Of a stretch of 44,077 bases of DNA, positions 4,772 to 35,601 are shown one piece after another. The stretch spans positions 1 to 44,077 of IMG/VR virus record IMGVR_UViG_3300046538_000292. One strand, written 5' to 3'. Origin of the DNA: a virus. A program made the position numbers and the translations under genes. A model generated the notes under the pieces. That model searched no databases, was not told the DNA's origin, and saw only the letters and a program-made list of their open reading frames with translations. The first letter of the stretch is position 1, and each line of letters starts with the position of its first letter.

Positions 4772-4805
4772 AAAAAACCATCTCACTAATGAAGATGGTT
4801 TTTTT
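4772..4805. terminator. Bidirectional hairpin terminator
   Basis: A 9-bp perfect stem (4775-4783 with 4793-4801) is extended by A/T pairs, has a 9-nt loop and carries a T-run on either strand. It separates the tape measure promoter from the divergent plus-strand cassette. Confidence 0.7.
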
Positions 4806-4945
4806 GTTGATTTTCAGCTATTTGCGTTTTTTTGATCTTTTTTTTTTGTAAGAAAATTGAATATTTTGTTTTCAAAATCATCTTTTTAGAATCGTTATAA
4901 AAAGCGGTTTTTTTTCTCAAAACCACTAATTTAACTTACCTCTTT

Positions 4946-6681: not shown

Positions 6682-7620
6682 TTAGTTCTTAAAATCACTT
6701 GGAAGTGCGTATATAGGTTTTAATCCTAAAATTGATCGGGCTTTTTGAATATCTCTTATATCTGCAGGAGAGAAATGAATTTTAACAACTTTCAGCTCAT
6801 CACCGATCTTATCTTCAAACTCCTCAATTGTATTACATTCTACAATATAATCTTTTAAAGTGGAAAAATCAACACCAAATGTGTCAACCATTTGCTCAAT
6901 GAAGCTTATTTCTAATAATCTGTTGTCCAGTTTTTTAATATCAATTTTAAGATTCTCATTTTTGATATAACTTTCCGCTACATCCTTATCTTCAAGCAAA
7001 GATGGCAAAGATTTTTCAATATAAGATTTAAGAGTTTCAGTAATAATCTCTAAATCATCAATTTTAGATTCCAACTTTAAAAGTTTTTGACTTTCCGAAC
7101 TTTGACGTAAAAGATCCCTGAAAAGACCTGCCCATTGTAACTTTAAGTATGTAGTTATTTCACTAACATTCTCGAAAGATGAAATTATAATGCCTGCTTT
7201 AATAGCATATATTTCTTCAATAAATTCAAATATTTTGATATTGTCAACAAAACTATATTTCGTCTGTGTTCCTTTGTTTAGTAAATAGGTTTGATATTCA
7301 GAAAAAACACTTCTGTCTACGAAAAGATATACCTGCTTTCCTTCTTTGTAAGCAGTGGTGATCTCTAATTGAGTAATTGAATGTTGATTATCTTTAGAGT
7401 TACTTCCAAATCTATTACCAATGATTCCCACTAATATATCAACTTCCTTTACTTCTTTATAACAATATTCTTCAAGATTTTCCTTCATTCCGTAAGGGAT
7501 GTCTCCAGTCTCGTTACGCACAGGCTCATATCCCAATTCAGTTACAAATCTTTCAATATCAGTTCGTATATGTCTGAGGTCATAAAATGTTGAACTAATA
7601 AATACTCTTGGTTTTGCCAT
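6682..7620 (-). CDS. DUF4062 TIR-like domain protein, candidate defence effector or sensor
   Basis: This is a 312-aa protein. Residues 1-115 match DUF4062, a TIR-like alpha/beta domain. The first strand is PRVFISSTFYDLRHIRTDIE, followed by DILVGIIGNRFGS and then SITQLEITTAYKEGKQVYLFV, whose Glu sits where TIR NADases have their catalytic Glu. Residues about 125-310 are helical and charged with no recognised domain. It lies 9 bp below the gene for a small membrane protein, so the two are probably co-transcribed, and a SIR2 gene lies further upstream. In other proteins the domain is found with signal-transducing or immune NTPase modules. Whether it cleaves NAD is inference. Confidence 0.75.
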   Translation of the reverse strand: MAKPRVFISSTFYDLRHIRTDIERFVTELGYEPVRNETGDIPYGMKENLEEYCYKEVKEVDILVGIIGNRFGSNSKDNQHSITQLEITTAYKEGKQVYLFVDRSVFSEYQTYLLNKGTQTKYSFVDNIKIFEFIEEIYAIKAGIIISSFENVSEITTYLKLQWAGLFRDLLRQSSESQKLLKLESKIDDLEIITETLKSYIEKSLPSLLEDKDVAESYIKNENLKIDIKKLDNRLLEISFIEQMVDTFGVDFSTLKDYIVECNTIEEFEDKIGDELKVVKIHFSPADIRDIQKARSILGLKPIYALPSDFKN

Positions 7621-7629
7621 TTTAATTTT

Positions 7630-8097
7630 TTAATTATTATAAATTACTTGTTTTAAAAAAGGTAGAAAAATTGTTGCTAAGGCAAATAATCCCAACAATA
7701 TGGGAAAAATGAAATCAAGAAAAACTACTGACATTGACACAAAATTATTCATTCTGTAGTTAGGTCTCAATTTATCTGGAATTAACTCTTCTTGGGTACG
7801 CGTAAGGTTTTGTGTGAAATTGTTAGTCTCATTTATAAATTTTAAATACTTTTGGTGTTTGTCCTTTAAGAAGTCATCACTATATCGGATAACAAGCGCT
7901 CCAATCTCAAATACAATCAAATATCCCACTATTTCAGGGATGATAGAAGCATCTTCAACTGGTATTTTAAACCCAAAAAATTCTATTGTTCCAGTAGAAT
8001 TTTTCACCAACATTTTGAAACTTATTCCAATAAATGAACTTATCAGCAAAGTTTTCCTAATTTGTTTTGTATCGCTAAATTCAAAGTTATCTAACAT
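7630..8097 (-). CDS. Small membrane protein paired with the DUF4062 gene
   Basis: This 155-aa integral membrane protein has hydrophobic segments at about 17-31, 53-71 and a long one at 118-150. A charged cytoplasmic-type stretch (about 72-117) lies between the second and third. It has no family I recognise and does not look like a holin. The gene ends 9 bp before the DUF4062 gene and starts 108 bp after the SIR2 gene. In defence loci a small membrane protein beside a TIR-like sensor is often the membrane-disrupting effector. Here that role is only suggested by position. Confidence 0.7.
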   Translation of the reverse strand: MLDNFEFSDTKQIRKTLLISSFIGISFKMLVKNSTGTIEFFGFKIPVEDASIIPEIVGYLIVFEIGALVIRYSDDFLKDKHQKYLKFINETNNFTQNLTRTQEELIPDKLRPNYRMNNFVSMSVVFLDFIFPILLGLFALATIFLPFLKQVIYNN

Positions 8098-8122
8098 TTT
8101 ATGTTTTTGATTATCAGTTTTT

Positions 8123-8130
8123 CAAATTTA
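8123..8130 (-). promoter_or_regulatory. Possible -7 box for the membrane/DUF4062 pair
   Basis: On the minus strand TAAATTTG matches TAnnTTTG 25 bp before the ATG at 8097. No clear -33 TTTG lies at the usual distance, so the pair may also be read from the upstream SIR2 promoter. Confidence 0.4.
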
Positions 8131-8205
8131 ATAATTAATTCTCTTTCGCTACTATACTTCCATTAGATAAATAAAACGGTTGTACTTTTTCCGATATTAT
8201 ATTAT

Positions 8206-9414
8206 TTACTTTGACAACCTTCTTATTTCATCAAGCTTTAAAGGAATTTCACTGTAATTTTTCACCCAAATTGTTTTTATGCCTAATGAAAGTAAATCTT
8301 TTTCTTCAAATGATTCAAACAAAGCGATTAGGGATTCCACTGTACTTTGCATATCAATGTCTTCAATATTTTCACTAATAACGTTATCTGTTTGGCTCAT
8401 TAAAAATTCAAGCTTATCTTTTACAAAATCAGCATCTTGTTTCAATTTAAAACAATAATGAAATCCTTTACTTTCAGTTCTTTGCTGATTAGCAATATCT
8501 AACAATCTACGCGTATTAGGATCTGTTAATGATACACCTACAAATAAACAATTGTAGTCCCTAAATTTATTAATCTGGACAATATTATTCCAGCTATAAA
8601 TGTCCATATATTGCTTGTGATAAAAATTTTCGCCAAATGTTATTAAATTATTCTCTGCTAAATCTCCTTTTTCTGGTAAGTATCCATGTACATGATAGAT
8701 AGGTAGTTCACCCGCTTCTATATCCTCACTATTTCCAAATATTGCTTTAAAAGGTAGATCGATTGGTAATGCTTTAAGCCTTTCTTCCAGTATATCGTCG
8801 AAATTATAAGTTATGATACTATTAAGATTAGGACTTTTCCCAGGTGAAATACAAAAATTTATTATCTGATCCATAAGAGGAGACTGAACTTCTCTATCAA
8901 TTTCTTTATATAATATGGATCTTACTTCTTCTTCAAAAAGCTTTTTTTGAGATTCGAAATGTTTCTGTAAATATCGTCCAGCAATCAAAGGACTCGGATT
9001 AAAAATTTTTGAAAATAGTGCAGATAAATTTGTTGAGGAATCATCCTTACTATTAATGGACATTACCATAAGTTTTTGTAGTAGTATTTCCCAATTTGGA
9101 AGTCCAAAACCCATTGAAACTCCCGCACCTAAAACAAGAACTAGTTTTTCATCTCTAAAATTATTTTTTAATGTTGACAAATAGTCTTCGCCACCACCAT
9201 AAAATTTACCTCTTAAATTGGTAAGAATATGTTCTATTGATTTATTGAGATCTACAATATCACTTTTTTTAACAACTGTTTTGTAATAATTATTTAGATT
9301 ATTGCTTGGCATGTAATTTCTAGAATATTCTGAATGTATAAGATCGCTAAAAAAATCTGATTCTTTTTTTTCTTTATCATTATTTAGATCAATTTTCTCT
9401 TGATTTCTTGGCAT
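8206..9414 (-). CDS. SIR2-domain protein, probable NADase of a defence system
   Basis: This is a 402-aa protein. After a ~90-residue N-terminal extension it carries SIR2-family NAD-binding motifs: GAGVS (96-100), TYNFD (202-206), HVHG with the active-site-type His (241-244) and GVSLTDPN (293-300). These place it in the SIR2_2-type group whose members deplete NAD during phage infection, not with protein deacetylases, since the zinc-binding Cys residues are absent. It sits between the terminase and tape measure genes, where it has no structural role. It heads a minus-strand group with a membrane protein and a TIR-like protein. A perfect -7 box lies just upstream. Confidence 0.82.
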   Translation of the reverse strand: MPRNQEKIDLNNDKEKKESDFFSDLIHSEYSRNYMPSNNLNNYYKTVVKKSDIVDLNKSIEHILTNLRGKFYGGGEDYLSTLKNNFRDEKLVLVLGAGVSMGFGLPNWEILLQKLMVMSINSKDDSSTNLSALFSKIFNPSPLIAGRYLQKHFESQKKLFEEEVRSILYKEIDREVQSPLMDQIINFCISPGKSPNLNSIITYNFDDILEERLKALPIDLPFKAIFGNSEDIEAGELPIYHVHGYLPEKGDLAENNLITFGENFYHKQYMDIYSWNNIVQINKFRDYNCLFVGVSLTDPNTRRLLDIANQQRTESKGFHYCFKLKQDADFVKDKLEFLMSQTDNVISENIEDIDMQSTVESLIALFESFEEKDLLSLGIKTIWVKNYSEIPLKLDEIRRLSK

Positions 9415-9492: not shown

Positions 9493-11217
9493 CTAGCTTC
9501 CAATTATTTCAGGATCCGAAAAATTACTACTAGCTTTTTCCTGATAGATTTTCAACCATGGACGACGGCAAATTAAATACTTCAAAGCATCCGATAAATT
9601 TGTGGAATACATCGGCAGTTTTTCTTTCGGAAGTTTCTCTGAAGATTTATCCTTATGAATTTTTGTTACATTTTTTGCATTCTTTTTAATGACCTGTTTA
9701 GCAACATTCATGGATGAAATAAGCTGACGGCACTGATATTTATCAATCAATAAACCAGGAAGCTGACGATAGTTTCCGTTCATCAGAGCCTTCATAAAAT
9801 TAAATTCAAGCTGCTGCTCAATATTCCCCTGATTTCTTGACATTAAATTTACAGTCCATCCGGTGGAAGTTCCGTCCGGCCATGTCTCCAGGAATTTCTT
9901 CATTTCGTTTGCCCAGTCACGTCCCACATCTTCGTAAGCATTCGCAGATCTGTCAAAGTAAAAATCGATGACTTTCTTTTTGTGATGGGCGAAAAACTTC
10001 AGAAAACGTTCACAAATCTTTTCCGTTTTTTGACTGAGTGAAAATAAATTCTTTAAAACTCTGATCGTAGTTCCCTGAGTCTGGCCGATAACCATTGAAA
10101 TCATATTTCCAAAGTCGGCACCAATTTCCAAAGGCTTATCCGGAATACAATATTTTAAATCTGTAGAAAACGTTTCTGCCTGATCACCCGTTTTGTACCG
10201 GTAGTAATTTTCGCGGATAATTCCGTCTTCATAAATATGGCGGTTATCAAAAGCTACATAGAAACGTTTTCCGGCTTCGACCTGAGGCGCCTGAGATAAT
10301 ACTGCAGTATTGAATTCTATTTCTCCAAGAGCAGCCAGAGCAGTCTTAAAGAAGTCTAAACGAAGTACGTTGACATTGACAAATGATGAAGCTTTGTAAA
10401 AAAATGTAGAACCTTTTCTGAGTCGATGTTTCAGAACAGATAATTTTTTCATCTTATTCTGAAGAGTCGCCAGCAGTTTTTTGTTTCTTTTTCTTCCGGC
10501 TTTTATAGCGCTCGCCAAAGCCTTGTTAAGTTCAAGAGAAATTTGAAGCAGATATTTGATCTGCTTTTGATTCATTTCTTTTTGTTTGTCAAGAATCCAA
10601 TCATATTCCCCAGGCATGATGATATTAGGGTGGTCAGTTGTAAACGTCACACCCAAATAATACGGAGATTTTCCAAAAACTGTAGGATCACCACGCAAAG
10701 CAGGGAATAATCTGTCAATTCTAGTTTTCTCAAGATATTTCGTTTCATCACCTGCCAAATGCTGGTAAGAGTTCCCCGCTCCGGAACTGGGAGTATCCAT
10801 CGAAATATAATTAAAGAAATTTCCGGTAAAAGTCGATATCGTGTGTTTATACTCGAAAGGCTGTTTGTATGGTTTATCAAAATGATCAGGCGGAGCTTCG
10901 TCCACAACGTAATGAATCCCCTCAATCCATCCTTTACGGTTCCAACCCTCAATAATGGCAGGTACTACGTTTTTGAGAAGGTTTGTGTATGTATTTCCAA
11001 CAAGAGCAATGTAGCTGTGAGGCATCTCATAGCAAATGTTCATCAATCTTTCGGATAAATAATCTGTAGTTTTACCGGTACCCCTTCCCAAGATCAGAAA
11101 CAAGTTCTGAGGCTCCATAAGGTCGGTGATCATTTTTAACCAGGTTGAATACCTAACTTCTACATCATCGTACGCAGAAAGTGAATCAATTCGGACCGTC
11201 TGCCTGTTCATCATCAA
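9493..11217 (-). CDS. Phage terminase large subunit
   Basis: This 574-aa protein is the ATP-driven motor and nuclease for DNA packaging. The ATPase part shows Walker A GRGTGKTT at 44-51 and a hydrophobic strand with acidic GDETKYL near 155-160 as the likely Walker B region. The RNase H-like nuclease part has EIGADFGNM and FYFDRSANAYEDVGRDW, whose Asp residues suit metal binding. The start lies among three successive ATGs and overlaps the upstream gene by about 30 nt, as expected in this tightly packed operon (13845 to 9493, late promoter 2). Cargo genes follow it instead of the portal, which is unusual. Confidence 0.92.
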   Translation of the reverse strand: MMMNRQTVRIDSLSAYDDVEVRYSTWLKMITDLMEPQNLFLILGRGTGKTTDYLSERLMNICYEMPHSYIALVGNTYTNLLKNVVPAIIEGWNRKGWIEGIHYVVDEAPPDHFDKPYKQPFEYKHTISTFTGNFFNYISMDTPSSGAGNSYQHLAGDETKYLEKTRIDRLFPALRGDPTVFGKSPYYLGVTFTTDHPNIIMPGEYDWILDKQKEMNQKQIKYLLQISLELNKALASAIKAGRKRNKKLLATLQNKMKKLSVLKHRLRKGSTFFYKASSFVNVNVLRLDFFKTALAALGEIEFNTAVLSQAPQVEAGKRFYVAFDNRHIYEDGIIRENYYRYKTGDQAETFSTDLKYCIPDKPLEIGADFGNMISMVIGQTQGTTIRVLKNLFSLSQKTEKICERFLKFFAHHKKKVIDFYFDRSANAYEDVGRDWANEMKKFLETWPDGTSTGWTVNLMSRNQGNIEQQLEFNFMKALMNGNYRQLPGLLIDKYQCRQLISSMNVAKQVIKKNAKNVTKIHKDKSSEKLPKEKLPMYSTNLSDALKYLICRRPWLKIYQEKASSNFSDPEIIGS

Positions 11218-15156: not shown

Positions 15157-16653
15157 CTACGAATATTTTTTAAAGTCATACGCACTTAGAAGTTTTCTAA
15201 AATCAGAAGATGCAGAGTCGCTTACATTGTTACGTAAATAATTTTCAGCATCACTTATTTCTATATTGTCATTCATTAAATTCCAAAACATGCTACTAAC
15301 TTTATGCGTATGAGCAATATTTTCATCTTTCATTATATCTTCAATTGAGAAATTTATTTTTTTTGCTGATTCGATAACTTTTTCAACAAAGGATTTCAAA
15401 TTTTTATCTTGTTGAAGTTTCAGCGATTCAATAGAGCTTAAGTTTGGATTTATTGTTTCAAAACCAAAAATTGGGAAATATTGATTAGATTGAATGTTGT
15501 AATGATCAATACATTCTAATATTTGTGAATTAGCTTCATCAATTATCTCGAAGTACTTTGAAAGTAACTCTTTTGCAGTATGATAATAATATTTGATAGT
15601 CTTGGTAGATCCAATTGCGAGAACCTTATCACTATTATTTAAATCATCCAAATCTTCGGTTATACTTACTTTGATATCGCCTCCTGAAAAAATTTCTTTC
15701 ACAATATTTTGTACTTTTCGAATATCTAACGCACTAACTGGTAAAACTAGATTGGAAATCGCCTCATAAATACGAATAAAATTATCTGTCCTTATTTTAT
15801 TAATTTGAATTGTAAGGTTATTTTGTAGAACTATATCATGTTCAACAACATCTACATCTTGAATATCTTCTCCATATTCTACCAACAGAAAATTTCTTTT
15901 GATTTGTCTCGCTTCTTCAGAATTTGGTTCAACATAAGAAAATATAGTCTTGAGAATTTTTTTCACATTTTCATCTCCAACACCATATCCTATAAAAATT
16001 ATTGGGTTATGAATAAAAAGAGATAACAATTGCGCTCGTATTAGCTCATATCTTTTCTCAAAACCATCATAATCAGATTCTGTAATAATAATTTTATCAG
16101 GATTATCATAACATCCGTGAATTTTGTAGACCGATCCGTATGGATTGCTGAGCAAAATATTATTTCCAATAAGTTTTTGAAATTCAAATATAGACTCAAT
16201 CAAACCATCATAATTTGTTGTAACGATTGAGCCAATATTTTTTCTGATTTTTTTTAAAATTTTTAATTCATTTTCTTTTTCTTCGCGGAATTCTAAAGTT
16301 GAGAATATTTGTGATATATAGATTTTAAATCTGCTCAAACTTATTCCTTCTTCCATCTTTTGATAAAAAACGTCATTTATGTGTTTAAAATTACCATTCC
16401 GGTCATCCTTCAAACTGTTATTGAAATCTCTTTCAATTTCCGTCGCAATTTTTGTATAATCAAAAGAACCGTTAAATTCAAATCGAGATTTTACGTCAAG
16501 ATAATACTCTGTATTCCCAACAAAATCAAAACATATCTTTTTCAATAAACCGTCCCACGTGAACGAGTTTTTTAAATATCTCAAACTAACTCCGGTTCCA
16601 ATAAATAAAACAGGATGGTTTTTATAATGCTGTATAAAATCTTCGATAATCAT
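15157..16653 (-). CDS. SIR2-domain protein with unique C-terminal region, candidate defence NADase
   Basis: This 498-aa protein begins directly with a SIR2 fold: GTGVS (19-23), TTNYD (145-149), KIHG (177-180) and GYGVGDENV (222-230), the NAD-binding and active-site pattern of SIR2_2-type defence NADases. Zinc-ribbon Cys residues are absent, so deacetylase function is unlikely. Residues about 300-498 are helical and unmatched to any domain I know, and are probably the sensor or oligomerisation part. It is not closely similar to the other SIR2 protein in this window apart from the motifs. Its own -7 box lies in the 66-bp gap upstream, and an HTH gene follows. It interrupts the connector/tail genes, so it is best read as cargo. 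Confidence 0.82.
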   Translation of the reverse strand: MIIEDFIQHYKNHPVLFIGTGVSLRYLKNSFTWDGLLKKICFDFVGNTEYYLDVKSRFEFNGSFDYTKIATEIERDFNNSLKDDRNGNFKHINDVFYQKMEEGISLSRFKIYISQIFSTLEFREEKENELKILKKIRKNIGSIVTTNYDGLIESIFEFQKLIGNNILLSNPYGSVYKIHGCYDNPDKIIITESDYDGFEKRYELIRAQLLSLFIHNPIIFIGYGVGDENVKKILKTIFSYVEPNSEEARQIKRNFLLVEYGEDIQDVDVVEHDIVLQNNLTIQINKIRTDNFIRIYEAISNLVLPVSALDIRKVQNIVKEIFSGGDIKVSITEDLDDLNNSDKVLAIGSTKTIKYYYHTAKELLSKYFEIIDEANSQILECIDHYNIQSNQYFPIFGFETINPNLSSIESLKLQQDKNLKSFVEKVIESAKKINFSIEDIMKDENIAHTHKVSSMFWNLMNDNIEISDAENYLRNNVSDSASSDFRKLLSAYDFKKYS

Positions 16654-21082: not shown

Positions 21083-21895
21083 TTACTTTCTCGAAGCTTC
21101 AACCAGATAGGTCTTTTCTGCTTTTACAACACGTAGATTAATTACTGAATCCTTCAGGGCAATCCAATTGATTGCTTCCTTCAGTAATACAGGAAAAGTT
21201 CCGGTCGGAGTATTTTTAAGAACCATAGGAGCATCACCACCGCCACCGATTAAAGTAACAATCTGATCATGATCAAAATTAGAAGCTAGGAAAGATACAT
21301 CTGCAGTAACAGCAGTAGTTGCTAATTGATAAACCGGACCGTCAGCCTTAGCCAAAGTAACATCTTTACCAACAACATTTTTAGGCTCAGCAAAAGAAAC
21401 ATCACCGCTGTAAAACTTAATGAAATCTCTGTTGATCTGCTCCTGGTCAAAAGTCAATGTATTGATGTTTCCATCTTTATCGTCTTTTCCTGATACCGTA
21501 AGCACCATTGGATGACAGTCAGACCCCATCACTTTCATTTCCTCTTCACCACCACAACCACCGTAGATGATCACAAAGCCTTCACCCATGAACTTTTTAA
21601 TAAAAGAAATAGCTTCTTTCGTAGTTCCAGGGTGTTCACCTACATATTTGTTCATTGCGCCTCTACCGTCCGGATTTCCAGAAGATTCAAAAGAAGCTGC
21701 CTGCGTAGGAGCCGTCATATAAATTCTGAAGAAATTGGTACCAGGCTTAAAAACGAAATTACCGATCAGAGTAACGCCATCTTCAGCAACACTTGGCCAA
21801 GAAACAATATCATCTACCAATGCAGCAATAGAATTGGCTTTCTTTGGAGTGGGCGTACCCGCATTATTTCTTGATTTTTTTAAATCTTGTCTCAT
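21083..21895 (-). CDS. Structural protein (probable major tail/tube type), paralogue of 31496-32161
   Basis: This 270-aa protein is strand-rich with many Gly and Val residues. It shares a clear pattern with the 221-aa protein at 31496-32161 over its first ~165 residues: an N-terminal G-x-PTPK, a D-I-x-S-x-P segment, GNFVFKPGTNFFRIYMTAPTQ, S-G-x-x-D-x-RG, then PG and GFVI, and LTFDQEQINRDFIKFYSG. Sequence after ~170 is specific to this copy. It lies 49 bp below the capsid gene, so a tail tube or capsid-associated role is likely. Which of these is right cannot be told from the sequence. Confidence 0.65.
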   Translation of the reverse strand: MRQDLKKSRNNAGTPTPKKANSIAALVDDIVSWPSVAEDGVTLIGNFVFKPGTNFFRIYMTAPTQAASFESSGNPDGRGAMNKYVGEHPGTTKEAISFIKKFMGEGFVIIYGGCGGEEEMKVMGSDCHPMVLTVSGKDDKDGNINTLTFDQEQINRDFIKFYSGDVSFAEPKNVVGKDVTLAKADGPVYQLATTAVTADVSFLASNFDHDQIVTLIGGGGDAPMVLKNTPTGTFPVLLKEAINWIALKDSVINLRVVKAEKTYLVEASRK

Positions 21896-25778: not shown

Positions 25779-26804
25779 TTAATTATTTTTTTTAAGCAAT
25801 GTTTTAAATTTTAAAGCAGGCTTTTCTACAAACTTCCAAGATAAAGAGGCTAAAAGAAACGTAATTACGAAACTAATAATTGTCAAAAGAATCCAATTTA
25901 GATTAAAGTAATGCATCAAAGTTTGCTGAATAATAAAACCGTAAATGTAAATCCCATACGATAAATCTCCAATCTTTGAGCCAATCAAATTTATATATTT
26001 CGTAGAATCCCTACCAAATGATATTACCAATACAGCAATGAGTGGAAAAAAGAATCTAAAAATATTAAAGTACACCGAAGCTAGTAAGATTAAAAATATA
26101 ATGGAATAAGTAATTTTTTTGATATTATTTTTGTAATAATACATAATCATTCCGGCAATGAAAAAAGTACCAAACTCAAAAAACTTTGATGAATCCAAAT
26201 ATAAACGTGATAGAAAGTGGAATGAAATTTTTAAATTATACAGAGAATAAAAAAGAGCAAACAAAGCAAAAGTCAAAATTTCCTGTATTCTCAAATTTTT
26301 TCTGAAATAATATAAAGAAGCGATCATTGCATAGCAAGTAAATTCATACCCGAGAGTCCATAAACTTCCATTAATAACTCCAGTGTACGGATTTTCAACA
26401 AATAAATTTTCTATACTGAATTGTGAACCATATAAAATAGATCTGCTTTTGAAATAGCTCCAAAAGGAATTTGTTTTTATCAAAGTGTGATCAATTAACA
26501 GCACCAGTAAGAAAGTAAAAACCAGCATAACAATTAATCCTGGATAGAGCCTGATTAATCTCTTCGAAAAATAATCTAGTAAATTTTTTGATCTGTTTAA
26601 ACTTCCAAGAATCAAATATCCACTGATAGCAAAGAAAGAACCGACTGAAATAGTACCTATAGACAATTGCTCACCTGACCAAAAAAAGGTGGGATCATTC
26701 AGTAATTTACCTGACAGTGGAAAAGCATGATGAATAATTACCAAACTAGCAAAAAGCAATCTTAAAAAATCAAAATTATTAATCTTATTGATGTGAGCAT
26801 TCAT
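25779..26804 (-). CDS. Acyltransferase 3 (OafA-like) membrane protein, probable lysogenic conversion
   Basis: This 341-aa protein has about ten hydrophobic segments. The N-terminus has FDFLRLLFASLVIIHHAFP, the acyltransferase-3 signature with R and paired His, then IGTISVGSFFAISGYLI near 50. The family transfers acetyl or similar groups to cell-surface sugars. Phages use it to alter the O-antigen or capsule and so block other phages. I start at the ATG at 26804, because the longer frame would use a TTG inside the probable -7 box (26809-26816). It sits between two terminators, apart from the lysis genes, which fits independent expression in the lysogen. Confidence 0.85.
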   Translation of the reverse strand: MNAHINKINNFDFLRLLFASLVIIHHAFPLSGKLLNDPTFFWSGEQLSIGTISVGSFFAISGYLILGSLNRSKNLLDYFSKRLIRLYPGLIVMLVFTFLLVLLIDHTLIKTNSFWSYFKSRSILYGSQFSIENLFVENPYTGVINGSLWTLGYEFTCYAMIASLYYFRKNLRIQEILTFALFALFYSLYNLKISFHFLSRLYLDSSKFFEFGTFFIAGMIMYYYKNNIKKITYSIIFLILLASVYFNIFRFFFPLIAVLVISFGRDSTKYINLIGSKIGDLSYGIYIYGFIIQQTLMHYFNLNWILLTIISFVITFLLASLSWKFVEKPALKFKTLLKKNN

Positions 26805-26850
26805 GCAACGAAAATACAATATTTAGTTATTTTTTTTGCTCTTATTTTAT

Positions 26851-26901: not shown

Positions 26902-27429
26902 TTAGAATTTAGAATTATGCTTCTTAAGATCATCCATTCGATTAGTCCATCCCTTGAGGAATCTTTTCTGTGATGGATTATTCTTCACGATATCATTCAG
27001 AAATTTATATCGCCTTTCATAAAGCCTTTCCAAAAAACCTTCCGTAGCATTATTCAAAGCTTCAATAGTTTTAGGACCCACTACGCCGTCGGATGTAACT
27101 CCTAAAAGTTCCTGAGGTTTTTTAATTCCGTGAACACCAGAACCCCAAACCCAATCAACCAAAGTATTGGCAATCGCCTGATCTTTGATCTTATCAGCTT
27201 TCCAACGGTCCCAATAGTTTTTTTTCATTATTGAAATTGCATCAGCTTCTGTTATCAATTTCAAATCTGCGACATCAATATCGCCATCACCGTCTTTATC
27301 GTAGCCTTGTGATTTCCAAACCGCAATCGTTACTCCTTTGTTAGTTGCCCCACCTCTATCAAGCGGATCATTTACAAAACCTCCTTCCCATTTTAGAATG
27401 AAAGGTGCTAATAATTGAATTTTTGCCAT
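26902..27429 (-). CDS. Endolysin, glycoside hydrolase family 108
   Basis: This is a 175-aa protein. GH108 enzymes cut peptidoglycan glycan strands. ILKWEGGFVN places the catalytic Glu at residue 15, and GGATNKGVT follows as usual in the family. The C-terminal half (DGVVGPKTIEALN and helices) is the PG_binding_3-type region. Residues 44-55 (DKDGDGDIDVAD) form an EF-hand/dockerin-like calcium loop, as an insertion. There is no signal peptide, so it needs the holin upstream. I use the inner ATG at 27429, 1 bp after the spanin stop, because the longer frame adds 15 residues outside the family pattern. Confidence 0.9.
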   Translation of the reverse strand: MAKIQLLAPFILKWEGGFVNDPLDRGGATNKGVTIAVWKSQGYDKDGDGDIDVADLKLITEADAISIMKKNYWDRWKADKIKDQAIANTLVDWVWGSGVHGIKKPQELLGVTSDGVVGPKTIEALNNATEGFLERLYERRYKFLNDIVKNNPSQKRFLKGWTNRMDDLKKHNSKF

Positions 27430-27430
27430 T

Positions 27431-28009
27431 TTATTTTTTTCTATAATTTTTAAAGTAAATGAATAAGCCACCAATAACTAAAGCAACACCTCCGAGAAAA
27501 GCAAAAACAATCCAGCCTCCCGCTTGAAATCCTTTAGAAGTAATATCATTGGTTTTTGTACTTACAGCTGATGCAACGTCTTTGATTGTTTCTTTTGAAA
27601 CTGCAGTTTTGGCGAGATCCTGAATGAAGTTTGTAGATTCCTCCTTTTTGCTTTCTTCCGTTTTTTCTGCGCCTTTTTTATAATGGTTGCTGATGGTGAA
27701 CTCTGCTTTACCTTTTATGAAAATACTTTGTAAAGTATCTTTTCCAATTACGTTATGATATACTAACGGATTTAAAGAATCTGCTTTGCCTTTAATAACA
27801 ATTTCACCAGAGAAATCTTCAACCTGTTTTTTGACAACCTGATCTGTAATTTTTTTAGTCTCATCCTTTCGGATAATTTCTTTTACAGAATCAAGTTTTA
27901 CACGTTCTATTTCAGTTTTACCTTCTTTCAGTATTGAAATGGTTTTATGCTTTGTCCTACAACCCAATATTAAACTACTCAGCAGTATTAGAATCAATAT
28001 CTTTTTCAT
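27431..28009 (-). CDS. Probable unimolecular spanin (u-spanin)
   Basis: This is a 192-aa protein. It begins with a lipoprotein signal ending in LILGC (Cys17), has a charged, partly coiled middle (about 20-160), and ends in a transmembrane helix (about 164-187) with a short basic tail. An outer-membrane lipid anchor joined to an inner-membrane helix is the u-spanin layout known from phage T1 gp11, which fuses the two membranes at lysis. Its place between holin and endolysin, overlapping the holin gene by 35 nt, supports this. The alternative is a plain lipoprotein of unknown use. Confidence 0.72.
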   Translation of the reverse strand: MKKILILILLSSLILGCRTKHKTISILKEGKTEIERVKLDSVKEIIRKDETKKITDQVVKKQVEDFSGEIVIKGKADSLNPLVYHNVIGKDTLQSIFIKGKAEFTISNHYKKGAEKTEESKKEESTNFIQDLAKTAVSKETIKDVASAVSTKTNDITSKGFQAGGWIVFAFLGGVALVIGGLFIYFKNYRKK

Positions 28010-28526
28010 CTGTAATATTTTTTAGGTTTAGTTCATTAATATCTAAGGTCTTATTGAATTTTTCAAACTTCTTTAGAAATGCCAACGGCGGGAATTTTCC
28101 GTTTGTAATAATTCCAATATTCACGAAGGCATTTCCGGCAGGATAAACGAAAATCATAATCTTCGTTGCTACCTTAAAATAAATACTGTCAAGATCTGCA
28201 TCGGCAATGATCTGGATAAAAGCTTCAGTTAAAAAGTAAACCAAAATCACCAATCCAATTTTTTGACAAAAACCGATGATCATTTTTTTAGGAGAAAATG
28301 TATTGAATTTCATATGCTTCCAAACTCCTGCGCACAAATCTGCCATGATAGCCAATCCTAGAAAGAATATGAAAACATAACTTTCAAGATACCATCCTGT
28401 GATTCTCTCTGAAATAGTCATTCCGACAGCTGGAACTAAAGCCAATTGAAAAGAAGACCACATCTTGCCACCTACACCACTAGAGTGGATAGCAAGAAGA
28501 TTTTTTATAATAAACTGCTTAATCAT
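27975..28526 (-). CDS. Phage holin
   Basis: This is a 183-aa membrane protein with hydrophobic segments at about 22-40, 47-68, 83-107 and 120-145, resembling the phage_holin_4 type. Such holins make holes in the inner membrane and let the endolysin reach the cell wall. It is the first lysis gene after the tail fibre gene (10 bp away), followed by the spanin and endolysin genes. The C-terminal ~40 residues are charged and cytoplasmic. Confidence 0.8.
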   Translation of the reverse strand: MIKQFIIKNLLAIHSSGVGGKMWSSFQLALVPAVGMTISERITGWYLESYVFIFFLGLAIMADLCAGVWKHMKFNTFSPKKMIIGFCQKIGLVILVYFLTEAFIQIIADADLDSIYFKVATKIMIFVYPAGNAFVNIGIITNGKFPPLAFLKKFEKFNKTLDINELNLKNITDEKDIDSNTAE

Positions 28527-28536
28527 GGGTTTGTTA

Positions 28537-31485
28537 TTAATTCAGCCACTGAGTATCTAACCACTCAATTCTATTTTTTAAAAATAATTTGATATGCTCA
28601 AGTGTTGGTTCGCCATTTGCAAAAAGACTGCTCCATTTTTTTGAATCTGCCTCATATACGCTGCGAGGAATATTTTTAGCAATATTATCAAAGTAGTTTC
28701 CTAAAAATTCAGAAGCTAAAAATCCACTTTTTCTCAGTTCTGTATATCGTGTTTTTATTTCGGCTGAAAAATGAGATCTGAAAGAATCCCAAATATCTCC
28801 AGTTAAAAATCCAGTTCTAGTTATTTGCATCTCCCAAGCTGGTAAATGCCAAAATCCTATTGTAAAATCCATATCATATGGACATAAAGACCATTGATTA
28901 CCATTCCAAGTAAGAGCGTTCACGTTGTTACCAATAGAATCATGATGAAAAAAAACTTCACAGAATATTTTATAATCAATCCAATTTTTTATTACAATAT
29001 AATCAGCTGCATTAGCTCTGGCGGTTCCTGCATTATTTTTAAAGTCAATTGTCCAATTGAAAAACCTATTGATATAAGCTAAAACCGTTGCATCCGGAAC
29101 TGGTCCCATGTCTACATATCCAGTCATTTTAGGAGACTTGATTTCCCACTTAGAAGAAACAAAACCTGTCGTGAAAAATGCTTCATAATCTCCATTATCC
29201 AAAAATATATGCTCTTTTACAGCATTATTTAATGCGTAATTTTCTCTAGTTTTTTTCAGTCTTAAAGTATAGAGACCTAGAAAAGATCCATTGAGATAAA
29301 CTTCAGTTGGAAAACCATCAGGGTGATATTTAGCATCACCTATATACTTTGCATTCTCTGCTGTCGGCTTTAAAACAAAAGGAATATTATTAACTTTTGA
29401 TACTGGGTAGCTGTTCTTAGAAATCATATCTCTCCAGATTCTTCCCATACCGATATCTCGTGTATGAGTTCTGTCACTTTGATAAGCCTTTAAATGTAGG
29501 GAGTCAGATGCAACAAGATCACCAAATTTTACAGCAACTTTTTCGTCTTGGAAGTTGATGATATCAAACGTGTAACCTTTTTTTGGATATGCAGCACTCC
29601 CACTTCCTTGTATTGATAATTTAACTTTTGCGGTAACTTTCTTTTCATTGTTAATTAAGAAATCAAATTCAAGTGTAGTAGACTGTCTTGCAGACGACAT
29701 ATCAGTTGGTAAAGTTCCTCTTAAATCTATTCTTCCAAATTTGGGCTTTTCTAGTCTGATAAATTTTTCATTTACCAGCTTCACCCCGCTTGTAGAAATA
29801 TTTTCACTTTCGACAAAATTTCTATCGTAGATCTTCAATGAAAAGGGTTCTGACTTTTTATAAGAATAATGTATAAAGCCATCTTCTGGTATTAATACAC
29901 CTAAATCCGTATACTGAATATCGGTTGAGTAAAATAATTTACTTAGCAACTTTCCATCATAACCAAATAATCCAACACCATTATTACCAAAATATCCAGT
30001 AACAAGTAAAGTGTCTCCTTTTCTAACAGGATACAAGCTTGACACTAAATAATCCGGATGTCCGGTATAGTTATTATAATGTGATGTTCCTATTACAGCA
30101 TTTTTAATATCGTAATATCCGTCGTAAACACCAGAAGAATTTAAGATTTTGACAGCGCCATTTTTCAGCGTTCCGTCCTTCAGATCAATATAATCTTTTA
30201 CGGAGAAATGCTCATCAACATTTTGTCTATTCAATAAAAATAGATCAACAACAGCACTGGCTTTACTTTGATTAAAATGTATTATTCCATCTTTTAAGAT
30301 GTCGATTTCAACTGCGTAGTAATCTGTAGAAATATCACTCGTCATATGGCTTCCATCACTATTTAAAATAATGTAGGCAGGATGTCCACTCAATCTATTC
30401 CCTCTGAAATTAATAGCGTCTCCTTTTTTTACTGCTATGGACTTATTCAGCGCGCTTATAGACGAAATTTTATCCCCTTCAGTTGAGATATAGAAATCAT
30501 CTTCTTTAATCAAATCAGCAGTCCCAAAATTTACATTTTCAACTGTTAATACAGTTTTGAATTTCTTGTCAAGATATGAAAGACCCTCAATGAATTTCTT
30601 TACTGAATCATCTCCAGACAAACCCGTTTCATCGTATAAGCTTTTTACCGATGGATTTGGATAATTTATTATTAAAAAATTTACAATAACTTCATCAAAA
30701 TCACTGACATTAATAACCAAATCTGTCACTACTTCTCCAGTCGCTACTAGGATAGATTCGTAAACATTTCCCTTTCTCCCTAAAACTGCTACATATGGAG
30801 CTGTTGGGCTTCCAACTAATAGTCCCGAAATTTTGATTTCAGTCTCCGCGGTAAATTTATAGGCTCTGGTAGTTAGATTGCTCGTGAATACACCATTCTG
30901 ATCATAATAACCAACTTCAAAATTATTTATCACTGTCTCAACACCTTCAACGAATGATTTTAATGCAATTCTCGAAACCTTATCACCACGAACAATATTT
31001 CGCCAAATGATAGATGTGTCGTTAGGAACATCAGTGATATTTGCCGTTTTACCTACTTGTAGTTCCCATATAGAACCTTCATGTACTCGCTGAATAGGTT
31101 CTAAAGCTGTATATGTTAATGGAAATGATGAACTTAAGAAAGAGGGAATAAACTGCAGTGCAGCAGGTATGTCCAACTCCAACTCCTTCCACTCAACTCC
31201 ATCATACGATAAAATTCCTTGTTTATCAATGGTATGACCTCCAGCATTCGGATAAGTTCCCGCACCGGCCCAAAACCATTTTGCATCACCTGTTTGAATC
31301 ACCGGAACATCTGCAGGTTTTAAAACTCCGGCGTGATCCGACTGCTTATTGATGATCATCCATGTCCCGTTTTTGCGGTTAATATTAATGGATCCATCAG
31401 GAAGAATAAACATTCCCTGATTTCCGTTGAGCTCTGATATTGCCGGCAGTTGATTAACTGTCACTGGAACTAAATAGTTTGTCAT
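28537..31485 (-). CDS. Tail fibre / receptor-binding protein with a CotH kinase-like domain
   Basis: This is a 982-aa protein. The N-terminal ~110 residues read as a tail attachment and fibre region (MTNYLVPVTVNQLPAISELN). The middle, about 110-565, is strand-rich with repeated modules (three share a Y-x-D-x-x-G / V-K-KGDxxxxxG type pattern) and may bind sugars. Residues about 575-975 match CotH: LSIQGSGSAAYPKKGYTFDI, LYTLRLKK, NWIDYKIFCEVFFHHDSIGNN (about 836-856) and YDMDF (870-874) with Asp residues placed as in the family's metal site. CotH proteins are atypical kinases known from spore coats. The domain on a tail protein suggests modification of a surface or tail target, or a carbohydrate-binding use of the fold. 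Confidence 0.8.
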   Translation of the reverse strand: MTNYLVPVTVNQLPAISELNGNQGMFILPDGSININRKNGTWMIINKQSDHAGVLKPADVPVIQTGDAKWFWAGAGTYPNAGGHTIDKQGILSYDGVEWKELELDIPAALQFIPSFLSSSFPLTYTALEPIQRVHEGSIWELQVGKTANITDVPNDTSIIWRNIVRGDKVSRIALKSFVEGVETVINNFEVGYYDQNGVFTSNLTTRAYKFTAETEIKISGLLVGSPTAPYVAVLGRKGNVYESILVATGEVVTDLVINVSDFDEVIVNFLIINYPNPSVKSLYDETGLSGDDSVKKFIEGLSYLDKKFKTVLTVENVNFGTADLIKEDDFYISTEGDKISSISALNKSIAVKKGDAINFRGNRLSGHPAYIILNSDGSHMTSDISTDYYAVEIDILKDGIIHFNQSKASAVVDLFLLNRQNVDEHFSVKDYIDLKDGTLKNGAVKILNSSGVYDGYYDIKNAVIGTSHYNNYTGHPDYLVSSLYPVRKGDTLLVTGYFGNNGVGLFGYDGKLLSKLFYSTDIQYTDLGVLIPEDGFIHYSYKKSEPFSLKIYDRNFVESENISTSGVKLVNEKFIRLEKPKFGRIDLRGTLPTDMSSARQSTTLEFDFLINNEKKVTAKVKLSIQGSGSAAYPKKGYTFDIINFQDEKVAVKFGDLVASDSLHLKAYQSDRTHTRDIGMGRIWRDMISKNSYPVSKVNNIPFVLKPTAENAKYIGDAKYHPDGFPTEVYLNGSFLGLYTLRLKKTRENYALNNAVKEHIFLDNGDYEAFFTTGFVSSKWEIKSPKMTGYVDMGPVPDATVLAYINRFFNWTIDFKNNAGTARANAADYIVIKNWIDYKIFCEVFFHHDSIGNNVNALTWNGNQWSLCPYDMDFTIGFWHLPAWEMQITRTGFLTGDIWDSFRSHFSAEIKTRYTELRKSGFLASEFLGNYFDNIAKNIPRSVYEADSKKWSSLFANGEPTLEHIKLFLKNRIEWLDTQWLN

Positions 31486-31495
31486 AAAATAAAAA

Positions 31496-32161
31496 TTACC
31501 ATTGGTTATTAATTGGGAAATAATCTGCTTTTATAAATTTATCACCGAGCATAATGGCCCATAGATCAATTTCTTCATCATTTAAATTGGTACCATCTCT
31601 TCTGGCATAAGCGCCATCAAATTCCACATCAGGATCATCAATCGCTGATTCATCAACGACGATAGTTCCATTATAAAAAAGAATAGGATCTCTGTCTGCG
31701 AACGTCTGCTCAAATGTGAGCTCGTAACCTTTGGCAGATTCATCATCATTGAAGTCTCCAGTGAAGTAAAGCGGATTATCTATGCTACCGTAGATTCGGT
31801 GGAACTGTTTGTCGTAAGAATTCATTACGATAACAAAACCCTGATTGATGTTGTTTTTTACAAACTGATGAATTTCCAGATCATCACCAGGATAATTACC
31901 GGTAACTTTCTTTTTGAAACCTCTGGAATCAACTTCACCTTCAGATTTTATATTTCGTTTCTGAGTGCTTGGAGTAAGATAAAGGATGTGAAATCTTCTA
32001 CCGTTTTTCAAATGAATATCACCATTACAAAGAATTCCTTTTGCGTCTACCGGTGGTAACGAAATAATATCTTCCTTGTAAAGTAAGTAAAGCTCTCCTT
32101 TTGGAGTCGGAAGCCCCGCACTACCCTTTGGTTTGCGTGCGTTCAATCTGAAATTAGACAT
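31496..32161 (-). CDS. Structural tail protein, paralogue of 21083-21895
   Basis: This 221-aa protein shares with the 270-aa structural protein the pattern PTPK, DIISLPPVD, GDIHLKNGRRFHILYLTPSTQ, VDSRG, the PGDDLEIHQFVK region, GFVI and LTFEQTFADRDPILFYNG. The divergent C-terminus is acidic. It is the first gene after late promoter 5 and lies 10 bp above the tail fibre gene. Duplication of a structural fold, with one copy in the head/tail module and one beside the fibre, suggests a baseplate or fibre-base role for this copy. Confidence 0.65.
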   Translation of the reverse strand: MSNFRLNARKPKGSAGLPTPKGELYLLYKEDIISLPPVDAKGILCNGDIHLKNGRRFHILYLTPSTQKRNIKSEGEVDSRGFKKKVTGNYPGDDLEIHQFVKNNINQGFVIVMNSYDKQFHRIYGSIDNPLYFTGDFNDDESAKGYELTFEQTFADRDPILFYNGTIVVDESAIDDPDVEFDGAYARRDGTNLNDEEIDLWAIMLGDKFIKADYFPINNQW

Positions 32162-32174
32162 TCAATTTTTTTTA

Positions 32175-32219
32175 CAAAAGTCGAATTCAGAGGGCAAAAC
32201 TTATGTTACACCAAAAAAG
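32175..32219 (-). promoter_or_regulatory. Late promoter 5 (tail-lysis operon)
   Basis: Minus strand TTTTTTGGTGTAAC, 22 bp, then GACTTTTG (32175-32182), one base from TAnnTTTG. The GTAAC core is at 32205-32209 and overlaps the stop of the 187-aa gene. Confidence 0.8.
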
Positions 32220-32764
32220 CCGTAATTTAATTTGTTGTTATTTTGGAAGAGCGACAGCACTCCATTATTTGTATATCGGTAATACAAGATTCTCATTTGG
32301 TTCTGCGAATATCCGTACTCATAAAGATCATACATATCGCAGAACTCATTGATTGCTTTCTTAATTTTGCTTTTGTAGATATTGCCTTTACAATATCCTT
32401 TCACGAAGAAGCAAAAATAAGTTCTGAAGTATGAATCAATGAACTTATAGAAACACTCCAGATCTTCAAATGATAAATCAACCGAGAACTCTGCAGAGTT
32501 ATAAAAATTTATTATTTCGGTTGAAAATACTTTTTTCTTTCCTTCAGCATTCGCATAGATCGTTAAGCAAAATTCTCTTATTTCCTTATCGCCTTTCATC
32601 CGGGCATACAAAAACTGACCGAGAACACTTTTCGGTTCTATTAGAATCTGTTTATATTCGCCACCATCTTTTAGCAGCGAAATACCATCACATTCCCTAA
32701 GAATGAAGGGTATTAAATAGCCCGGAAGTTCAATAGGGCGAAGCCTAACCATTCTATAAAACAT
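32201..32764 (-). CDS. Hypothetical protein, second gene of the repressor-type operon
   Basis: This 187-aa protein is rich in Tyr, Phe and Lys. The first half has strands and the second half is helical with a basic KGNIYKSKIKKAINEF segment. No family is recognised. It overlaps the upstream gene by 11 nt, so translation is coupled. Its last codons contain late promoter 5. Its expression is probably early, because the operon promoter matches the early promoter at 42.1 kb. A regulatory role, including late activation, is possible. Confidence 0.6.
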   Translation of the reverse strand: MFYRMVRLRPIELPGYLIPFILRECDGISLLKDGGEYKQILIEPKSVLGQFLYARMKGDKEIREFCLTIYANAEGKKKVFSTEIINFYNSAEFSVDLSFEDLECFYKFIDSYFRTYFCFFVKGYCKGNIYKSKIKKAINEFCDMYDLYEYGYSQNQMRILYYRYTNNGVLSLFQNNNKLNYGFFGVT

Positions 32765-33152
32765 CTAATGTGCTCAATGAAAATTTAATTTGTGTACGAT
32801 CTGAAGACGAATTGAGATCCGGAACCATTTTAAGATTGTTGAAATAGTCATTTCGATACAGAACGATTTTCCTTCCGTTATCAGCTACAGCTACGACAGC
32901 TTTTGTTTTATTCAGTACTGCGATATCTTCTGATTCAGTTTGACCAGGTTCGGAATAAACGATCTCATTTAAATAATAAAATCCGGAGATGCTATTCTTC
33001 CGGTCCCAAGTGTAGAAACACGTTCCAGGAGTAAAATATTTGGGTTCTAAATTTTGGGCTTTAAATATAATTTCTTCATCCTGAATCCCATCATATAATT
33101 CTGATGCCGGAACAAGATATAACTTACTGATATATAATCTCTCAGACTTCAT
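32754..33152 (-). CDS. Hypothetical protein, first gene of the repressor-type operon
   Basis: This 132-aa, strand-rich protein has no recognised domain. The ATG at 33152 lies 15 bp after a perfect -7 box (TATCTTTG). The upstream operator matches the one in front of the early operon, so it should be silent in the lysogen. The function is not evident from the sequence. Confidence 0.6.
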   Translation of the reverse strand: MKSERLYISKLYLVPASELYDGIQDEEIIFKAQNLEPKYFTPGTCFYTWDRKNSISGFYYLNEIVYSEPGQTESEDIAVLNKTKAVVAVADNGRKIVLYRNDYFNNLKMVPDLNSSSDRTQIKFSLSTLDVL

Positions 33153-33603: not shown

Positions 33604-34296
33604 CTAGCTGATTTTGCAGTAATGACGTAATAATTCAACTAATAAATAAACTTTAGTAACCGGACATGATCCACTGGGTGGGTTACCAGATGCCGTATGA
33701 TGATTATCTAAATTTTTAGCCCAATTAATTGCTCTTACAACATCACCTTTTTCATTTAAAAATTTGATAACTTTTGGATCATTTTTTTGATATCTAAAAC
33801 CAAGCCTTCGTGATAGAATTTTTATGTAATCATCTCTATGAATAGCTGTTTGCAAATTATCAAAATGCAAAACATACCATAGCTCAAATGATTGATTTGA
33901 ATAAGCGCATTTTATTTCTTCTGCAGTAGCTGCATTTATTGCATTATCGAAATTTGCAGGTGGAAAGTCGTCCTTATCGAAAACAGCCCAAATTTCATTA
34001 AAGTTTGGTAATATTGGATCATTGATTCTTTCATTTTTTAATTCAGTAGCTCTATTAACTATATTCATTGTATTATCACCTTCTCCTACAACATGAATTG
34101 TTTTCACTAAATGTCTAGGTAATAAATTCTTATAGTAATCGAAATATAGAGGTTCAGTCTTTTCGCCCTCACATACAATAAGAAAATACTGCAATTCTTG
34201 ACGAGAGTCTACTTCCACTGGTTTAGTTACCGAAGATGCTTTTAGTTCTGCAACTAAATCAGCAAATGATAATTCACTATTCTTTTTCTTCGCCAT
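33604..34296 (-). CDS. RloB-like protein (AbiLii-type)
   Basis: This is a 230-aa protein. The RloB domain covers most of it: QYFLIVCEGEKTEPLYFDYY with the toprim-type Glu (about 31-50), EIWAVFDKDDFP with the Asp pair (about 106-117) and SNQSFELWYVLHF (about 134-146). The toprim-like fold is shared with nucleases, and the partner AAA ATPase gene overlaps its start by 20 nt. The pair corresponds to AbiLi/AbiLii, an abortive infection system in which the ATPase and RloB act together. A basic N-terminus precedes the domain. Activity has not been shown here. Confidence 0.8.
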   Translation of the reverse strand: MAKKKNSELSFADLVAELKASSVTKPVEVDSRQELQYFLIVCEGEKTEPLYFDYYKNLLPRHLVKTIHVVGEGDNTMNIVNRATELKNERINDPILPNFNEIWAVFDKDDFPPANFDNAINAATAEEIKCAYSNQSFELWYVLHFDNLQTAIHRDDYIKILSRRLGFRYQKNDPKVIKFLNEKGDVVRAINWAKNLDNHHTASGNPPSGSCPVTKVYLLVELLRHYCKIS

Positions 34297-35554
34297 TGCT
34301 AAAAACGCTTTCTAAATCATCAATAAAAGGAATTCCGCCATATTTGCCATCTAAATAATTTTTGTCAAATGGTGTCTCTTTTCTTGGCTTGAACTCGGCC
34401 AAGGTAGTAACATTTGTAGCGCCAAAAATATCTTTATCTACAAAATATATTTGATCTCTTCGCAAAATATCTCTACTAATTAATGAAGTATCATGACTAG
34501 CAACAATTAATTGAGCTTTAGTTTTGATTTTATCAGAATTAAACAATTTTATAATAGCTTTTGATAATAACGAATGTAATCTTGCATCAAATTCATCAAT
34601 AATTATCGGTCTTCCTTCTTTAATGGCTACTATTAAGAGACCTACAAGTCTAAAATATTTTTTTGTTCCTTCCGATTCTGCACTCATAAAAGAAAAGTTT
34701 TCAATGCCACTTTTCTTATCATTATCATAAACATCATGAGCTGATAATATTGCTACAGGTTTCCTTTTTTCAAATTGTATTTTGAATCTTTCCCTCATCT
34801 CTTCAGGAATTTTATCCTTAATTTCATCAAAGGTTATCGGAGCATCAAGAATATCAACATGGTTTATTCCTAGGTCTGCTTTTTTAATGAACGCCTGAAT
34901 AATTTCAACATACTTATTGTCCTTCATCAAATCGATTGTCATATCACGATAATCCCCGTCATTGATACCATGCACATTAAATATTTTACCAATATATTGA
35001 TCAATCTTTTGTGCTTTCGAAACGTTCCATTGCGATGCTACGGAAAGAAATAAAGCGTTTTTACGTGTCCTTTTTTGTAATCCTTCTGCATCCTCAAAAT
35101 ATTTATTATCAATTTTAATCTCTTGATTTATTCTTATAAATAACAACTTTTCAGTTGTAGAACCTTCAAATAGCCACTCTTTATGAACTTTATTAGTATC
35201 AGTCTCAAAACCATATCTAAAGGTAGTAGTACCAACAATAAAAGTTAATTCAAATAGTGATGGTTTTTTTGCAGTTTGCTTAGATAATTTGAATGATTGG
35301 AGATCCATTCTATCATCAACAGCCCTTTTCAAAGTGGATTCAAGTATAAATTCTTGAAAAAAATTGAAAGCGTCTAAAATCTTTGATTTTCCGCTAGCAT
35401 TAGGACCATAGAGCAATATTGTTTTTAAAATTTGTCTCGAACCATTTTCAATTACATTACTTTCCCTATGTTCTGTCAGAGAAGTAGCGTTAAAATTTAG
35501 GATTATAGGATCTTTTATAGATTTGTAATTTCCTACTTTAAAAGATATTATCAT
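34277..35554 (-). CDS. AAA ATPase of the AbiL-like system (AbiLi-type)
   Basis: This 425-aa protein is of the AAA15/AAA21 ABC-like group: the N-terminus MIISFKVGNYKSIKD, Walker A GPNASGKS at 50-57, a signature-type ESEGTKKYF region, Walker B PIIIDEFDARLH, and an ASHD switch His. Such OLD-like ATPases act with RloB in abortive infection. I start at the ATG at 35554, where the family pattern begins. Two upstream starts exist, the first of them a TTG that lies inside the -7 box. The cassette has its own promoter and terminator and lies in the noncoding region between the replication and tail modules. Confidence 0.82.
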   Translation of the reverse strand: MIISFKVGNYKSIKDPIILNFNATSLTEHRESNVIENGSRQILKTILLYGPNASGKSKILDAFNFFQEFILESTLKRAVDDRMDLQSFKLSKQTAKKPSLFELTFIVGTTTFRYGFETDTNKVHKEWLFEGSTTEKLLFIRINQEIKIDNKYFEDAEGLQKRTRKNALFLSVASQWNVSKAQKIDQYIGKIFNVHGINDGDYRDMTIDLMKDNKYVEIIQAFIKKADLGINHVDILDAPITFDEIKDKIPEEMRERFKIQFEKRKPVAILSAHDVYDNDKKSGIENFSFMSAESEGTKKYFRLVGLLIVAIKEGRPIIIDEFDARLHSLLSKAIIKLFNSDKIKTKAQLIVASHDTSLISRDILRRDQIYFVDKDIFGATNVTTLAEFKPRKETPFDKNYLDGKYGGIPFIDDLESVFSNGEEKE

Positions 35555-35593
35555 ACTTATGTAGATTATCCGCATACTTACGGAATTATCATA

Positions 35594-35601
35594 CAAAAGT
35601 A
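35594..35601 (-). promoter_or_regulatory. -7 box of the AbiL-like cassette
   Basis: Minus strand TACTTTTG, a perfect TAnnTTTG, 39 bp before the ATG at 35554. The -33 element is not a clear TTTG. CGCATAA repeats upstream (35614 and 35633) could be operator parts. Confidence 0.6.

Follow-up and report, generated by a model that had tools for sequence, protein, structure and literature searches.

A CotH kinase-like domain at the C-terminus of a probable fibre protein in a Duneviridae-like phage genome

What could a kinase-like domain of the spore coat type do at the end of a phage fibre? The question is raised by one gene of the virus record IMGVR_UViG_3300046538_000292, whose 44,077 nucleotides are called the window here. 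The gene (P0001) is a single open frame on the minus strand, running from an ATG at 31485 to a stop at 28537 and encoding 982 aa; the plus strand of 28537-31485 contains many stops. The initial annotation had placed the gene correctly, and it reads on the minus strand, as do the neighbouring, lysis, acyltransferase, phrog_19897 and defence genes of the window described below.

Known substrates of the CotH kinase are CotB and CotG of the spore coat, and its activity is needed for coat assembly (PMC7821199). A domain of this kind on a phage fibre is less notable than the initial annotation had held, since CotH annotations are already present in deposited phages and the domain appears in the literature. 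One study describes CotH kinase domains as an occasional feature of phage genomes, with a hypervariable C-type lectin as fusion partner, and calls them "currently unstudied" (PMC8008677, Benler 2021), and another reports CotH in 6 putative variable proteins (PMC4159848). Phage CotH domains are already known but unstudied, and the window protein adds another. These two papers were the only ones on CotH in phages or variable proteins to come up in a search that lay mostly outside subscription papers, and no description of the active-site invariance or of the partner genes of phage CotH was found there.

The fibre-like gene and its phage

Two Flavobacterium phages of the Duneviridae, 6H and laban6-1, have matches for 19 and 20, respectively, of the 41 window genes compared, and the gene order is largely common to the three genomes. 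The largely collinear matches point to a temperate, Duneviridae-like phage of Bacteroidota. Its host is read only from the relatives of the terminase-like gene (9493-11217), because a scan of genome contigs for relatives gave only three weak Opitutaceae loci; such terminase relatives were found in 49 of the 50,697 phage records, including 18 of Porphyromonas, 13 of Flavobacterium and 9 of Cellulophaga. One edge of the record falls at the end of the tape measure gene and the other where the integrase gene starts; genes beyond the tape measure, and the equivalents of 6H gp02-gp03, therefore lie outside it.

The gene sits in a block between two small genes (32201-33152), relatives of laban6-1 gp42 and gp46 (tblastn, E 3e-13 and 4e-5), and a holin gene. 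The holin gene is the next one downstream (27975-28526; phrog_14914 holin, E 3.2e-49; Pfam holin 3.8e-4, just under the cut-off), and a GH108 endolysin lies at 26902-27474 (PF05838, E 2.6e-25). The window shares this fibre/lysis block with 6H and laban6-1, with a local order that is not identical, but both of these phages lack CotH, and the block of laban6-1 has instead gp45, a protein of 543 aa that looks fibre-like from reading its sequence. By this comparison, the window gene lies in the fibre/tail region of the genome. The gene directly upstream (31496-32161) is a short relative of the gene at 21083-21895, both matching phrog_19897, and the two genes share their place of match in 6H, where only one such place is seen. 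The long copy adjoins capsid-type genes and the short copy stands before the fibre gene.

The N-terminal region of the protein (residues 1-304, 30574-31485) is presumed from its position to serve virion attachment. No relatives of it were detected, as residues 1-304 had no match in PHROGs, residues 1-170 none in IMG/VR contigs, and residues 1-581 none among the 50,697 phage records or among plasmids. Ahead of CotH follow two presumed beta domains, residues 305-432 (30190-30573) and 433-560 (29806-30189). Residues 305-432 weakly resemble 433-565 in a one-on-one phmmer comparison (i-Evalue 1.4e-4) and, at an E of 0.019 calculated for a small set, also the pre-CotH part of a related phage locus, L007. 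A full-length model built on a 5-row alignment was of very low confidence (pLDDT 31, pTM 0.25), so that no fold is claimed for residues 1-560, and a strand-rich character of this part is presumed from the look of the sequence together with that model. The initial annotation had described a tail attachment part joined to a strand-rich fibre; the C-terminal location of CotH on a fibre-like protein held up, whereas the attachment part is without any sequence match. Because the N-terminal 560 residues match nothing, the location in the virion is argued by analogy, and the genome position and the relatives described below suggest that the protein is probably a fibre.

CotH fold and active-site residues

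The CotH pattern that the initial annotation had seen in the C-terminal ~400 residues is confirmed by Pfam, as PF08757 matches residues 624-976 (28558-29616) over profile positions 2-322 of 322 with 68 bits (curated cut-off 23.8 bits) and E 1.3e-18. No further CotH match occurs in the 44-kb record. Residues 561-982 (28540-29805) were modelled with AlphaFold2 on an alignment of 33 rows, consisting of the window and 32 IMG/VR loci with near-copies included, and the model reached a mean pLDDT of 85.0 and a pTM of 0.87. The two best Foldseek matches of this model are the Bacillus cereus CotH structures 5jd9 and 5jda (E 7.7e-15 and 2.1e-14), and the next-best entry has E 6.9e-4. In VIA-align, the comparison with 5jda gave Z 30.5, rmsd 3.1 and 333 aligned residues at 12% identity, so that the predicted fold is CotH-like, as had been proposed; the third row, a lipid kinase, has Z 10.7, and relatives of FAM20C and HipA stand lower down, the secreted kinases of the FAM20C group with Z 9.6 and 8.7. 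Among the predicted viral proteins of BFVD, 18 entries match the model at E <= 0.001; several are named CotH or spore coat, one comes from Bacillus phage G, others come from uncultured phages such as cr52_1, and some have names of the internalin-like, leucine-rich-repeat or DUF1566 kind. When the PDB was searched with just the window protein sequence, CotH was missed; a six-row profile of phage domains found 5jd9 at E 9.6e-4. From sequence profile and model together, the window domain is confirmed as a member of the CotH family that is predicted to have the CotH version of the protein-kinase-like fold.

The domain is like Bacillus CotH (5jd9, 5jda) in family, in fold over the 333 residues, in the Asp/Asn/Asp set and in the Lys pair of the N-lobe. 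It differs in being only 12-13% identical, in its fusion to a 560-residue fibre-like region and in several residues treated below. The key metal-binding and catalytic Asp residues, whose presence the initial annotation had left to an alignment with active CotH, are both in place. In a profile alignment of six domains, the D-x4-N ... P-W-D of 5jd9 corresponds to D849, N854 and P-Y-D871. D849 (28939-28941) is thereby the equivalent of the catalytic D228 of B. subtilis CotH, N854 (28924-28926) that of the active-site Asn (PKA N171) and D871 (28873-28875) that of the metal-binding D251 of B. subtilis CotH. The spacing of the two Asp residues is 23 in the aligned B. cereus chain versus 22 in the window protein. 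Both D228Q and D251A made B. subtilis CotH inactive, according to PMC7821199, and CotH keeps equivalents of PKA D166, N171 and D184, as stated in a review (PMC12189002). The same review describes the adenine in CotH as stacked between Tyr142 and Trp245 (PMC12189002). By numbering, the counterpart of Trp245 of B. cereus CotH would be Y870 (28876-28878), the residue just before the metal Asp; this position is Y in 22 of 23 phage domains and N in the remaining one. No counterpart of Tyr142 was located in the window domain.

The conservation of these residues was followed in 62 phage loci, 5 from phage records and 57 from IMG/VR. After 22 apparent near-copies had been left out, 40 loci and the window were aligned and dereplicated to 23 domains, whose pairwise identity has a mean of 27.6% and a median of 23.9%. 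Among 310 gap-free columns, 10 are invariant, namely Q626, G627, K635, K636, K666, G737, D849, N854, D871 and D873. The Lys pair K635-K636 (29578-29583) lies in the N-lobe, and its invariance is partly built in, because the pattern scan of IMG/VR (L035-L066) demanded residues of the stretch S-x-x-x-x-KK; the five loci found by tblastn are free of that bias. A strict motif expression fits 54 of the 62 loci, and the other 8 are represented in the alignment by six domains, all with D, N and D. Outside the 23, a reverse-strand CotH copy in the phage locus L056 keeps the D-N-YDLD stretch and has H in place of K636.

A domain that serves purely as a binding tip is expected to keep its hydrophobic core and sometimes to lose active-site residues. 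With 10 invariant columns at 28% mean identity, and with D849, N854, D871 and D873 (28867-28869) unchanged in 23/23 domains, the phage set speaks against pure binding and for the retention of an active site, and it looks like the constraint acts on that site. The cellular control consisted of 20 loci, of which 5 without a match to the phage profile were dropped, leaving 15 domains from Verrucomicrobiota only. In a MAFFT alignment with some doubtful stretches, D849 is Asp in 14/15 and D871 in 15/15 of them, N854 is Asn in 11/15, D873 is Asp in 13/15, and K666 (29488-29490), invariant among the phage domains, is Lys in 1/15. Since D849 and D871 are also kept in nearly all cellular CotH, their retention alone does not set the phage domains apart; judged from these alignments, the phage domains have a residue signature of their own, and against Bacillus CotH the window differs by the Tyr at the place of the adenine-stacking Trp and by the phage-specific invariant K666 and Q626. 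In a tree, the 23 phage domains stand apart from the 15 Verrucomicrobiota domains (support 0.98 for the branch leading to the cellular ones), and the window clusters with L007, L008 and Acinetobacter-type loci (support 0.965). Because the cellular sampling covers one phylum, no claim is made that phage CotH arose once.

Phosphotransferase or binding tip

The reading that we prefer, and hold tentatively, is that the gene encodes a virion fibre of a temperate Duneviridae-like Bacteroidota phage with an active CotH phosphotransferase, which would phosphorylate fibre or tail proteins of the phage inside the cell before lysis, much as CotH acts on CotB and CotG during the building of the spore coat. 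The long virion fibre would end in the CotH kinase-like domain with its active site intact, and the domain would work in the infected cell, where ATP is plentiful. Its targets would be proteins of the phage itself, either the fibre or others of the tail, reached in cis or on neighbours, and the modified fibre end would then take part in adsorption. Neither the periplasm nor the cell exterior is known to have an appreciable ATP pool, and modification of phage proteins inside the cell is favoured because an extracellular kinase would be without ATP.

The relatives of the domain bear both on this reading and on its strongest rival, in which the CotH fold at the tip does nothing but bind or scaffold, as an adhesin or a receptor-binding domain without catalysis; we consider that rival possible though rather unlikely. 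Relatives of the CotH part occur in 9 of the 50,697 phage records and in 57 IMG/VR loci (25 in one search, 45 in another, 13 common to both). The domain forms the C-terminus of the protein in 61 of the 62 phage loci, with at most 37 residues after the match, which is the position of a host-specificity module and would suit a binding tip; the exception, L053, has about 400 residues after CotH. The N-termini vary between the CotH phages, and three of them have matches in tail-fibre or minor-tail families: L003 in phrog_3100 (E 3.5e-11), L004 in phrog_29002 (E 1.8e-28) and L006 in phrog_6183 (E 2.8e-6). The CotH gene of L003 comes after annotated baseplate and tail genes, and those of L050 and L059 appear, by reading of the translations, to come after baseplate-type genes. 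The locus L007 has the gene order of the window and also encodes a long fibre-like protein.

The genes that follow CotH likewise fit a link to variable modules. A conserved gene lies 6-20 nt after CotH in 11 of 22 loci. In seven of these (L002, L009, L010, L031, L035, L037 and L045) it starts 6-12 nt after CotH and belongs to one family, for which all four members tested matched DUF285 in Pfam; L035 has this partner even though its CotH is only 38% identical to that of the window. In the other four it belongs to a second family; the profile of this family hits the solved but unnamed protein 5vf4 at E 3e-69, and its motif looks C-type-lectin-like. That a repeat or lectin-like protein follows CotH in half of the loci would be in keeping with a binding tip. 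The same partner genes recall the cotH-cotG-cotB neighbourhood and might, by that analogy, be candidate substrates. In the window and in L007, the place after CotH is taken by a holin or holin-like gene and there is no such partner, and the window is also unlike Bacillus in having no CotB/CotG-like substrate gene next door.

In L056, two opposed CotH genes lie within inverted arms of 116 nt (4777-4892 and 10732-10847). The arms match at 91% and are separated by 5.8 kb, and a recombinase-like gene adjoins; as read from the sequence, this is likely an invertible fibre or host-range cassette. CotH on both alternative ends of this apparently invertible cassette is a further point for a role in binding. 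An annotated shufflon-type recombinase lies ~8 kb from the CotH gene of Acinetobacter phage MD-2021a. Near the window gene, a search for inverted repeats as in L056 gave only short pairs of 20-22 nt that look like chance, and no invertible cassette is therefore claimed in the window. By our own reading of the translations, an acyltransferase-like gene adjoins the CotH gene of L056. Some fungal CotH proteins are ligands of host receptors, as described in the accessible part of PMC9973265. The position of the domain and its link to variable modules thus keep the binding tip a strong rival to an active phosphotransferase.

The comparison with known phage CotH proteins leads to a similar picture. 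The window protein shares the C-terminal CotH, the same invariant residues and the tail-fibre position with the CotH of MD-2021a, gp13 of Klebsiella phage ST437-OXA245phi4.1, phrog_27151, phrog_9391 and phrog_28731. Its domain is 41% identical to that of MD-2021a and 27% to gp13, but the N-termini are unrelated, and both of these phages have a partner gene directly downstream where the window has none. With the DGR-linked CotH-C-type-lectin fusions it has in common that CotH stands in a phage or variable surface protein. Unlike them, the window protein ends with CotH and has no lectin domain, and no reverse transcriptase was found among 20 window proteins compared with Pfam or 30 compared with PHROGs, a scan that covered the larger ORFs.

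Several points weigh against the preferred reading of an active kinase working before lysis. There is no partner gene in the window and the holin comes directly after; the N-terminal part has no match that would tie it to the virion; the invariant kinase residues could serve nucleotide or metal binding without transfer; the Lys pair owes part of its invariance to the scan pattern; D849 and D871, kept in most cellular domains too, do not mark a function special to phages; and the adenine-stacking Trp of CotH would be a Tyr in the window domain. An active domain would mean that phage fibres bear an enzyme of a class familiar from spore coats, and that host recognition could be tuned or protected in a new way, through phosphorylated receptor-binding proteins. 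A wider version of the same idea, which we regard as speculative and doubtful, is that phages of several phyla carry a virion-borne CotH kinase, and that phosphorylation of their own receptor-binding apparatus ahead of lysis, in cis or on a lectin-like or repeat neighbour, is a general and unrecognised step of virion maturation. The residue pattern of the 23 domains and the downstream partners make substrate and timing testable for phage CotH.

Other readings and neighbouring genes

One possibility raised by the initial annotation, that the domain phosphorylates a host surface protein or glycan while the virion adsorbs to the cell, is improbable. The fibre would carry it there, and its fold relatives include the secreted kinases of the FAM20C group, but the lack of a known ATP pool at that site stands in the way, and no sequence sign suggests that the virion carries ATP. 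Still somewhat less likely is that the kinase fold carries out a different reaction, for instance AMPylation or glutamylation, with virion or host proteins as targets. Such reactions are described for kinase-like folds in the abstracts of PMC6858067 and PMC10870513, and the phage domains differ at the adenine site and have their own invariant K666; however, the D-N-D set is the phosphotransfer set of CotH, and there is no positive sign of other chemistry. Least likely of all would be a late intracellular factor outside the virion, acting for example on host proteins near lysis, for although holin, spanin-type and endolysin genes come immediately after the gene and the N-terminus of its product is without tail relatives, the related proteins have tail-fibre or minor-tail N-termini and sit among baseplate or tail genes, and L007 with the same gene order also has a long fibre-like protein.

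Several other genes of the window are of separate interest. After the lysis genes, an acyltransferase (25779-26819; PF01757; PHROG O-acetyltransferase, E 2.2e-39) is a candidate, from its sequence, for a change of the host surface in lysogens. The fibre protein itself had no match in PADLOC. An AbiL-like defence pair at 33604-35596 consists of an AbiLi-like ATPase (PADLOC, E 8.9e-89) and a RloB/AbiLii-like protein (Pfam RloB, E 2.3e-43). Within the structural genes, a SIR2-domain protein (15157-16653) matches the candidate defence family PDC-S25 at E 7.8e-153. Another possible defence island lies at 6682-9414, between the tape measure and terminase-like genes, and comprises a SIR2-domain protein (8206-9414, with a weak LmuA/ThsA match), a DUF4062 protein (6682-7620) and an unmatched small protein (7630-8097).
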